DNA of 64,000 nt from the NCBI RefSeq assembly GCF_004570385.1, contig NZ_SPQL01000005.1, forward strand, positions 1 through 64,000, read 5' to 3'. The DNA comes from Blastococcus sp. CT_GayMR19 (GTDB lineage Bacteria > Actinomycetota > Actinomycetes > Mycobacteriales > Geodermatophilaceae). A program made the position numbers and the translations under genes. How positions within the stretch are numbered: the first letter of the stretch is position 1; each line of letters begins with the position of its first letter. Positions 8,570-62,469 of this stretch are shown here, in pieces. The notes under the pieces are model-generated. The model ran no database searches and was not told the DNA's origin. It saw nothing but the letters and a program-made list of their open reading frames with translations.

Positions 8570-8608
8570 GACAGGGCCCCGTAGGTCATCGACCTACGGG
8601 GCCCTGTC
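8570..8608 (+). terminator. rpoBC terminator
   Basis: A perfect 18-bp stem (8570-8587 with 8591-8608) with a 3-nt loop begins 18 nt after the rpoC stop. There is no long T-tract, as is usual in high-GC actinobacteria. It ends the rpoBC unit. Confidence 0.8.
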
Positions 8609-8611
8609 GCA

Positions 8612-8722
8612 ATGACACCGCGGTCCTCCGGACCGCACCGCGTCCAGGTGCCGTCCCCTGCTGAGCGGAGCCGCTGCGTCACCGCTGCTTCTGGACCCTT
8701 CTGGCCCCACTCGGCGCGACAG
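8612..8722 (+). repeat. Dispersed intergenic hairpin element, copy 1
   Basis: This copy starts with ATGACA, then a 7-bp stem with a TCC loop (GCGGTCC-TCC-GGACCGC, 8620-8636). It continues through a conserved block containing CGGAGCCGCTGCGTCAC and ends near TCGGCGCGACAG. Related copies are at 36931-37061, 42824-42930 and 57567-57675. This one follows the rpoC terminator and lies between convergent genes. Confidence 0.75.
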
Positions 8723-36902: not shown

Positions 36903-36930
36903 CGAAAGCCGCCCTGCGAGGCGGTGGGAG

Positions 36931-37061
36931 GAGTGGGGGCCGGAGGCTCCCCGACGAACGCCGGGATGGGCTCCACGCAGCTGGGGACGGCACGTTGCAG
37001 CGGTGGGGTGCGGAGGACCGCGATGTCACAGCGGTGCGGTCCGGAGGACCGCGATGTCACA
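36931..37061 (-). repeat. Dispersed intergenic hairpin element, copy 2, with duplicated hairpin
   Basis: In reverse orientation this repeats the element at 8612-8722, sharing GTGGGGxCxGAGG, GGGGACGGCAC and the hairpin block. Its hairpin end is duplicated in tandem: 37000-37030 and 37031-37061 match at 29 of 31 bases. The second unit has the perfect stem GCGGTCC-GGA-GGACCGC (37036-37052). It fills the gap between convergent fdhD and the VOC gene, ending three bases before the VOC stop. Confidence 0.7.
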
Positions 37062-41424: not shown

Positions 41425-42768
41425 TTGGGTCGCCTGTTCGGAACGGACGGCGTCCGCGGCCTGGCCAACTCCGACCTGACGCCGGAGCTGGCTCTCTCGG
41501 TCGCGCGCGCCGCCGCCGGAGTGCTCGCCGGCCGCGACGGGACCTCGCGTCCCGTCGCGGTCGTCGGCCGCGACCCCCGGGCCAGTGGCGAGATGCTCGA
41601 GGCCGCCGTGGTGGCCGGGCTGACCAGCGCCGGCGCCGAGGTGCTGCGCGCCGGCGTCGTCCCCACGCCCGCTCTCGCCTATCTCACCGGCCGGAACGAC
41701 GCGGATCTCGGCGTCATGATCTCGGCCAGCCACAACCCGATGCCCGACAACGGCCTCAAGCTGTTCAGTCGCGGGGGCCACAAGCTCCCCGACGCGGTCG
41801 AGGCGGCGATCGAGCGCACCGTCGTCGCCGGCCGCTCCGGCGAGCACCGGCCCACCGGTGCCGGGATCGGCCGGGTCCGCGACCTGCCCGAGGCGGGGGA
41901 GGACTACGCCCGCCACGTCCTGTCCACCGTCGACCAGCCGCTCACCGGCCTCCGGGTCGTCGTCGACTGCGCCCACGGGGCCGCTGCGGCCACGGGACCC
42001 GACGTCTACCGGCGGGCCGGTGCCACCGTGCACGCCATCGGGGACGCACCCGACGGCTGGAACATCAACGACGGCGTGGGGTCCACCCACCTCGGCCCGC
42101 TGGCCGACACGGTCCGGGAGCAGGGCGCCGACATCGGCATCGCCCACGACGGCGACGCCGACCGGTGCCTGGCCGTCACCGCTGACGGGGACGTCGTCGA
42201 CGGCGACATGATCCTGGCGATCTGCGCCCTGTCGATGCACGAGCGCGGCGCCCTCAAGGACTCGACCGTCGTGGCCACGGTGATGAGCAACCTCGGTTTC
42301 CACCACACGATGCGGGACGCCGGCATCGCGGTGCAGACGACGGCCGTCGGCGACCGCTACGTGCTCGAGGCCCTGCGCGCCCGGGGCCTGAGCCTGGGTG
42401 GCGAGCAGAGCGGCCACCTGGTGTTCCTCGACCACGCCACCACCGGCGACGGCCTGCTGACCGGCCTGGCCCTGCTCTCCCGGATGGCCGCGACCGGCGC
42501 CTCCCTGGCCGAGCTCGCCTCGGTGGTGCAGCGGCTGCCGCAGATCCTGATCAACGTGCCCGTGACCGACCGGCTCGCCGTCGCCGAGAGCGACGAGGTG
42601 GCGGAGGCGGTCAACGCGGTCGAGGAGGAGCTCGGGGACTCCGGCCGGGTGCTCCTGCGCCCGTCCGGCACGGAGCAGCTCGTGCGCGTGATGGTCGAGG
42701 CCCCGACCCAGGAGCAGGCCGACGAGGTCGCCACCCGGCTCGCGGAGGTCGTCGCGCGGGTCGGTTAG
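41425..42768 (+). CDS. glmM: Phosphoglucosamine mutase
   Basis: GlmM, 447 residues, converts glucosamine-6-phosphate to glucosamine-1-phosphate for UDP-GlcNAc. The phosphoserine is S102 in SASHNP; the metal loop is HDGDADRC; the sugar loop is GGEQSGHL; the C-terminal phosphate site is [15 protein letters not shown]. The start is TTG at 41425, 8 nt after rpsI and without a clear ribosome site, so coupling to rpsI is likely. A 37-bp tandem duplication spans its stop codon. Confidence 0.96.
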
Positions 42769-42833
42769 CGGGACGCGACGGGCCCTGTCGCGACACGGGT
42801 CGGTCAGCGGGACGCGACGGGCCCTGTCGCGAC
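42758..42833 (+). repeat. 37-bp tandem duplication across the glmM stop codon
   Basis: 42758-42794 and 42797-42833 differ at one base (GGTTAGC versus GGTCAGC). The first copy contains the last codons and TAG of glmM; the second has TCAG. Each copy has a CGCGAC...GTCGCG stem, so the duplication doubles a terminator-like hairpin. Confidence 0.85.
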
Positions 42834-42930
42834 GAGGTGGGGCCGGAGGCCTCGCCGAGGAGTGACGCAGCGGCTCCGTGTGACAGGAGTGGGCTCCTGG
42901 TGGCGGTGTCGTGCGGAGCACGACGGTGTC
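42824..42930 (-). repeat. Dispersed intergenic hairpin element, copy 3
   Basis: In reverse orientation it matches the element at 8612-8722, including GTGACGCAGCGGCTCCG. Its hairpin is GTCGTGC-GGA-GCACGAC (42908-42924): five stem positions differ from copy 1 in paired fashion while the 3-nt loop is kept. It lies between codirectional glmM and glmS and abuts the 37-bp duplication. Confidence 0.72.
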
Positions 42931-42957
42931 CTAGACGGATCGGTCCGCCACTCCCGG

Positions 42958-57566: not shown

Positions 57567-57675
57567 ATGACAAGCGATCCTCCGGATCGCACCGCGGCCA
57601 GGACCCCACCCCTGACCGCGGAGCCGCTGCATCGCGCCTGCGCGGACCCCTCCGGGGCCCACTCGGCGCGATCAC
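57567..57675 (+). repeat. Dispersed intergenic hairpin element, copy 4
   Basis: It starts ATGACA, then GCGATCC-TCC-GGATCGC (57574-57590), and shares ACCGCG.CCAGG, CGGAGCCGCTGC and CCCACTCGGCGCGA with copy 1 at 8612-8722. The stem differs from copy 1 by a paired G-C to A-T change. It follows a terminator and lies between convergent genes. Confidence 0.75.

Positions 57676-58111: not shown

Positions 58112-62469
<4,358 letters not shown>

Follow-up and report, generated by a model that had tools for sequence, protein, structure and literature searches.

Four related loci in the window, i.e., the whole 64,000-nt stretch of Blastococcus sp. CT_GayMR19 DNA analyzed here, represent a non-coding and non-autonomous repeat of ~110 bp, REP/BIME- and BOX-like in kind, which is dispersed through the genome in ~100 copies at 78 sites. 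We read it, tentatively and with slightly less than even confidence, as an old REP/BOX-like element that has been kept by the fold of one of its single strands and most likely acts as RNA. Covariation establishes the fold, a polarity between the strands identifies which one folds, and orthologous sites document the upkeep of copies in place; the element's action, as RNA or as single-stranded DNA, is inferred.

All four copies that an earlier note on this DNA had located are present, with their bounds redrawn by a covariance model (Table 1), and their surroundings are as described there: three lie between convergent genes (by codon-usage gene calls), and terminator-like palindromes precede two, copies 1 and 4. 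The left hairpin, S1, had also been drawn correctly, its stems GCGGTCC, GCGATCC and GTCGTGC being perfectly paired and its TCC loop present in all four copies. The common layout proposed at that time stands insofar as the four loci align over ~110 bp; however, the exact CCAGG and CGGAGCCGCTGC blocks are missing in copy 2, and S1 is joined by a second covarying hairpin unit, in the right half of the element, that had gone undescribed. On the strand of the earlier note, the consensus runs TGACAyyG-(S1 hairpin)-ACCGCGGCCA..GCCGTCCCC-(~8 variable)-GAGCCGCTGC-(S3 left)-..(S4 hairpin)..-(S3 right)-A. Copy 2 comprises two tandem hairpin units, the one adjacent to the body (37005–37021) broken and the other intact.

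Table 1 Copies of the repeat and associated features in the window (CM, covariance model; palindrome and tandem block listed as side observations)
Feature	Position	Strand	Description and setting
Palindrome before copy 1	8570..8610		Terminator-like, after rpoC; near-identical in G009, kept in place like copy 1
Copy 1	8612..8721	+ (folded strand is minus)	CM match of 96.0 bits; G009 orthologue C85:129929; after rpoC-like gene and terminator-like palindrome, convergent genes
S1 hairpin, copy 1	8620..8636	+	GCGGTCC-TCC-GGACCGC; minus-strand loop GGA
Copy 2	36922..37029	-	CM match of 67.4 bits; G009 orthologue C85:158901; fdhD-like and glyoxalase-like genes either side, convergent
Intact additional S1 unit, copy 2	37036..37052	-	31-bp tandem duplication of the S1 module
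Tandem block before copy 3	42757..42834		39-bp tandem block over the glmM stop codon; one inner mismatch plus last base
Copy 3	42825..42932	-	CM match of 82.1 bits; G009 orthologue C85:166927; glmM-like and glmS-like genes either side, same direction; S1 at 42908-42924
Copy 4	57567..57673	+	CM match of 102.6 bits; orthologues in G006 and G009; LuxR-type regulator and DUF5319 gene either side, convergent; terminator-like palindrome precedes
S1 hairpin, copy 4	57574..57590	+	GCGATCC-TCC-GGATCGC
S3 outer stem, copy 4	57631..57672	+	57631-57638 with 57665-57672; encloses S4 at 57644-57660; hand-counted positions

Beyond the element edges conservation ends, except for a C placed two bases outside the S1 edge. 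Across 58 isolated copies from this genome, 3 of 80 flank columns exceeded the control maximum: column −2 on the S1 side (0.58 bits, the C that extends the edge) and, on the S3 side, columns +14 (0.21 bits) and +34 (0.25 bits), neither of which recurs in G009, a second genome used for comparison. A promoter belonging to the element and lying beside it was rejected on these unrepeated S3-side columns and on a look for minus-10-like TANNNT boxes ahead of the minus strand, which found none in two sets of isolated copies (0/58 and 0/54).

The earlier note had let its proposal depend on further copies in the genome and on their not stemming from one recent duplication. A covariance model (R1), built from 16 hand-picked copies (alignment A2), returned 105 matches at E ≤ 1 in this genome, partial and solo units included, grouped in 78 clusters, and 100 matches at E ≤ 0.01 when run on the window together with 69 fetched loci; since 150 of 10610 candidates were scored in the genome scan, weak matches may be missed and the copy number is a lower bound. 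A 17-base hairpin pattern allowed ≤2 mismatches occurred at 67 places, compared to 6 for a reversed control pattern. A single recent duplication does not account for these copies, as even the most similar dispersed full-length ones are 0.89 identical (81 copies compared in 3222 pairs). The S1 module is also found multiplied in tandem: additional 31-bp S1 units are found in several copies (window copy 2 and, in series, C42:12084), near-solo S1 units occur at C8:28385, C35:273922 and C2:40465, and whole or truncated units form tandem arrays at C4:108062-108509 (five units, period 84–85 bp), C2:21412-21860 (four units, period 113 bp), C1:24306-24586 and C1:148117-148414. The near-constant periods of the first two arrays point to local amplification, distinct from dispersal.

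With more sequences, the covariation first noted for S1 proved strong. Cells changed on both sides of a pair numbered 24 among 16 copies (7.3 in shuffles, s.d. 2.2) and 263 among 99 distinct rows (81.9 in shuffles, s.d. 11.1; at most 55 for slid structures); the counts on A3 and A4 rest on alignments fitted to the model and, the copies being related, are not counts of independent events. A mutual-information scan of 83 copies placed S1, S3 or S4 pairs in 11 of the 13 best positions, the other two being register neighbors of S1. The second unit thus covaries too, as an outer stem (S3) holding a triloop hairpin (S4). S1 occurs with 19 different perfectly paired arms and is perfect in 141 of 175 copies; S3 is looser, with all eight pairs formed in 74 of 172 copies when minus-strand wobble is allowed. 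A further helix, S2 (GCGGC..GCCGC), taken from single folds, was rejected as a covarying helix: 37 one-to-one orthologue pairs showed 2 double, 54 single and 2 other changes in it, and none of its pairs is among the 40 mutual-information pairs listed for the 83 copies.

Selection on an RNA or cruciform structure, as proposed in the earlier note, holds in that a folded single strand is under selection, but this strand is the reverse complement of the one noted (hereafter, the minus strand). In 155 of 158 full-length copies from three genomes, the minus strand had the greater stability, by 10.1 kcal/mol on average, and the plus strand was rejected as the working strand on this ground. The same preference was seen for the 48 nt of S3/S4 alone (151/158, compared to 301/600 for 48-nt control windows), for the 32 nt of S1 alone (143/158), and with DNA energies (151/158, compared to 302/600 for 110-nt controls), and consensus folding of 77 copies gave −84.8 kcal/mol for the minus strand versus −69.0 for the plus strand with ribosum scoring, and −25.3 versus −17.9 without it. 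Mismatches tell the same story in S4, where a plus-strand fold would predict G·T as the tolerated type: the plus-strand ratio of A·C to G·T was 39/2 in this genome, 29/3 in G009 and 4/1 in G006, indicating that the minus strand, on which A·C becomes G·U, is the folded one. There, most of the listed S4 haplotypes are fully paired through G·U, with 17 of 158 copies falling outside the search expression. Corresponding A·C to G·T ratios were 40/18, 27/27 and 4/2 in S3 (this genome, G009 and G006, respectively), whereas S1 lacked polarity (6 A·C and 7 G·T in this genome) and S2 leaned the opposite way in this genome (14 A·C, 26 G·T) and G009 (11/33), though not in G006 (7/6).

The resulting minus-strand fold consists of a long hairpin (S3 with S4) and a short one (S1), with a sequence-conserved linker between them. 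Among rows with a clear hairpin, out of 191, S1 loops on this strand were GNA in 134 and GNNA in 22 (156/170), and S4 loops were GNA in 135 of 154, with GGA, GAA and GCA found 114, 14 and 7 times, i.e., a variable middle base between outer bases that hardly change.

Placement relative to genes was evaluated at 160 sites from three genomes, using gene calls from a codon-usage script. Half of the sites (80) lay between convergent genes, compared to 5 of the window's 37 intergenic gaps of ≥40 bp; same-direction pairs accounted for 35 sites along and 23 against the element, divergent pairs for 15, and the remaining 7 were inside genes, mixed or at a contig edge. The S1 edge lay ≤8 nt from the stop codon of 59 of 114 facing genes, with the stop codon coinciding with the TGA of the element edge in 23 of these 114, and the S3 edge lay ≤8 nt from the stop codon in 30 of 102. 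The 3′ RNA module suggested in the earlier note is possible on this evidence, yet the orientation bias that it predicts is absent, since the two same-direction classes did not differ significantly (35 versus 23, p 0.15). RNA hairpins in read-through transcripts at gene ends would explain the tolerance of wobble pairs and the placement, but not this lack of bias. Moreover, it is in the smaller class (23) that the minus strand would be read from the upstream gene, the opposite of what a minus-strand 3′-UTR role predicts, which counts against RNA, and the null result for TANNNT does not favor RNA either.

Absent gene-orientation bias and absent promoter motif would both fit a hairpin formed in DNA, a reading that we consider possible but unlikely. 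In this case, the minus strand would extrude GNA-capped hairpins under negative supercoiling or in single-stranded DNA, and recognition of that strand would fall to a host protein, for which gyrase, a nucleoid protein or a former transposase are candidates. GNA triloops are known to be extra-stable in DNA rather than RNA, and the predominance of GNA/GNNA loops, the C–G pair found innermost in the stem in nearly all copies and the persistence of the polarity with DNA energies all agree with such a structure. However, the G·T pairs in S4 of many copies fit poorly, such pairs being ill-suited to stable DNA hairpins, and no replication-strand bias was seen in G010, the only genome counted for replication orientation and a single contig, where 11 of 22 copies lay with and 11 against replication, with the terminus assumed opposite dnaA. 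Six places on the same contig (G010:C1, e.g., 61610-61864) also carry equal-scoring weak DnaA-domain matches in 269-aa frames, which are probably IstB-like ATPases of one IS21-type element. Precedents for the DNA structure include the extra-stable GNA DNA minihairpins in work cited in PMC6479982 and phage N4 promoters (PMC4496689), where hairpin extrusion depends on the closing pair and on the loop's G and A. The template-strand hairpins of the N4 early promoters (PMC4496689) have a GNA-type triloop and are favored on just one strand, but only the loop type is common to both systems, and no promoter evidence was found at the present element.

Orthologous sites, defined by matches in both 900-bp flanks, were found for 33 of the 78 sites of this genome (30 in G009, 6 in G006), and at 27 of the 33 all four matched edges lay ≤250 bp from the element. 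All four window sites are orthologous in G009, with element identities of 0.65, 0.80, 0.74 and 0.90; the G009 orthologue of copy 1 has lost S4. In the 37 one-to-one orthologue pairs, S1 differed by 43 double Watson–Crick changes, 11 single and 2 other changes, and at least one compensated S1 pair was seen in 20 and at least two in 13 of the 37. S3 showed 46 double, 51 single and 40 other changes, and S4 showed 6 double changes, 13 single changes of the A·C type, 1 of the G·T type, 1 other single and 4 other. Copy 4 provides a direct example: S1 is GCGATCC/GGATCGC in this genome and G006 and GTGATCC/GGATCAC in G009, a compensated change in place on copies that are 89–90% identical. Many copies were present before the compared species diverged, and double changes have kept their stems paired in place. 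The primary sequence is kept only slightly better than third codon positions, with a median orthologue identity of 0.763 compared to 0.713, 0.93 and 0.95 for third, first and second codon positions of the flanks. Identity to the nearest dispersed copy (median 0.845, the best of many comparisons) exceeds that between orthologues, which may reflect gene conversion or later spread.

Occupancy of individual gaps varies among genomes. The glmM–glmS gap, the site of copy 3, yielded no model match in 8 of 8 loci from other named family members, three of them Blastococcus. In the gap of copy 4, the element is present in G006, G009 and G004 and absent by eye in G013, G014 and G001, and elsewhere the gap is longer with other DNA (ending in an S1-like remnant in G008) or unreadable. 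At the gap of C42:171160, G006 has a full copy and G010 a partial one; a remnant is left in G009, none is seen by eye in G011, and a different 1.2 kb stretch takes its place in G001.

The pattern of S1 changes also bears on whether the element might be a decaying selfish relic, functionless now, with perfect stems kept by template-switch (quasi-palindrome) repair copying one arm onto the other, which we regard as quite improbable. Template switching has been proposed to create multi-base compensations (PMC8794818), and here the S1 changes between orthologues were mostly double (43 versus 11 single) and often several together, while the primary sequence is weakly kept. At C36:76419-76529 in this genome, the S1 loop is inverted (GGA on the element's plus strand) and the remainder keeps its orientation; the orthologues in G006 and G009 have the usual S1 loop, and the inversion fits template switching. 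Such repair would explain both this inverted loop and the sudden S1 changes, but not the strand polarity, and the 13-to-1 bias toward the wobble type in S4 and the largely constant GNA loops are likewise left unexplained.

The best-known REP repeats are tied to RAYT, a Y1 tyrosine transposase that mobilizes them by acting on the hairpin in single-stranded form. The earlier note had pointed to such a REP-type transposase, and when it was sought in the family genomes, PF01797 was absent from 47 of 47, although the same search matched 5 of the 14 control genomes and 3 of the 32 genomes taken from elsewhere in the order. RAYT mobilization was rejected on this basis, and we consider an element of this kind extremely improbable and largely refuted, the more so as no GTAG-type unpaired tag was seen by eye (edges TGACA and GACA/GACC) and G010 showed no replication bias. 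Single-strand polarity would be compatible with it, as would placement at gene 3′ ends and a stop codon supplied by the element edge, both of which PMC3733652 describes for REPs, whose termini often supply stop codons. The same paper (PMC3733652) distinguishes a GTAG superfamily with RAYT from a CGTC superfamily without dedicated transposase, the latter with a terminal CGTC, an 8–9 bp stem, a 4–5 nt loop and a CCA-type tail. The present element has no terminal unpaired CGTC by eye, and in its S1 the core measures 7 bp and the loop mostly 3 nt.

Overall, the likeness to REPs and the dispersal suggested in the earlier note hold, with most copies positioned at gene 3′ ends. Like REP/BIME sequences, the element belongs with high-copy short dispersed palindromes found mostly in convergent or same-direction gaps and near, or supplying, stop codons. 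However, the palindrome of GTAG REPs measures 20–40 bp and has an end tag, whereas the element spans ~110 bp with two hairpin units, a conserved linker and a TGACA edge; neither kind of REP tag is present, no Y1 transposase was found in the family, and the fold is better on one strand. In BOX the repeatable module lies in the middle, whereas the repeatable S1 module is terminal here. BOX of Streptococcus pneumoniae is likewise a structured intergenic repeat with slow present movement, thought to be parasitic (PMC3049150); it belongs to other bacteria, and we liken the two by description, not by sequence.

MITEs resemble the element in being small, non-coding and dispersed with sharp bounds, but no parent transposon was found for the element. 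No target duplication above chance was seen among 126 isolated copies from three genomes (726 offset/length combinations, best z 2.7), and the ends, TGACA.. and ..CGACA, form by eye a short imperfect inverted match. A reverse transcriptase was rejected as present mobilizer, PF00078 being found in 21 of 47 family genomes and absent from this genome and from other copy-rich genomes such as G002 and G008. Carriage by phages or plasmids was likewise rejected, on weak tests: phage and plasmid collections gave no match to a single copy used as query, and viral contigs gave none to one exact pattern.

Across genomes, R1 matched 38 of 47 sampled Geodermatophilaceae, own genome counted, and none of 32 genomes from other families of the order, both lower bounds given 48 scored candidates per genome and stricter filters than in the own-genome scan. 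The nine family genomes without matches comprise all four sampled of g6, all four of g9 and the single g11, and five of the nine are <90% complete. A coarser class-wide draw of 296 genomes (13 candidates scored per genome, stricter filters) produced matches in just two, the own genome and, out of the 295 others, G099 from outside the family, with one match. The G099 match (L386, G099:C187:6956-7032, E 2e-7) looks like a genuine, shortened copy and could stem from contamination or mis-binning as well as from horizontal transfer; a match in Streptomyces (L238, 28 bits, E 0.009) was treated as chance. The window GlmM is 88% identical to that of Blastococcus haudaquaticus, other near loci being from Geodermatophilus, Goekera and Klenkia, and the sole match among named family loci was L184:5968-6078 in Blastococcus sp. 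VKM Ac-2987, beside fdhD, i.e., the place of window copy 2. In a look at 10 loci, four of them from the own genus, the six top copies from other family genera (g5, g8 and g12) had GGA S1 loops (one GGTA) and a more stable minus strand. Rfam gave no match at gathering score in the window and, in the four loci with copies, 2 matches far under gathering scores and away from the element. No open-licence paper among the matches listed describes the repeat in its title or the start of its abstract. The element is probably a repeat family of its own, so far almost confined to Geodermatophilaceae.

Taken together, we rank the action as RNA as more likely than the DNA hairpin, and the latter as more likely than the relic. 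For the favored RNA reading, the elements would have spread long ago via machinery now lost or unrecognized, other than RAYT, and each copy would have been retained because the folded strand serves a purpose at the end of a gene, where RNA hairpins in read-through transcripts may block 3′ exonucleases or, between convergent genes, transcription from the opposite side. Points against it are the often broken S3, the GNA triloops with their known extra stability in DNA, the 15 divergent sites, the lack of mismatch polarity in S1, the reversed lean in S2 and the weak primary conservation.

With many copies, no RAYT in 47 genomes, a clear strand preference and compensation in place, the element offers a clean system for studying repeat persistence, in which function, selfish spread and template-switch repair can be weighed against one another as causes. 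It also provides a marker for Geodermatophilaceae genomes and a set of non-coding features that lack Rfam model coverage. A bolder and rather doubtful proposal is that this family-wide, one-strand, GNA-capped double hairpin, independent of gene and replication direction and kept in place at dozens of sites, is a chromosomal site read by a host protein or a trans-acting multi-copy RNA; if true, it would represent a new kind of intergenic element in Actinobacteria.
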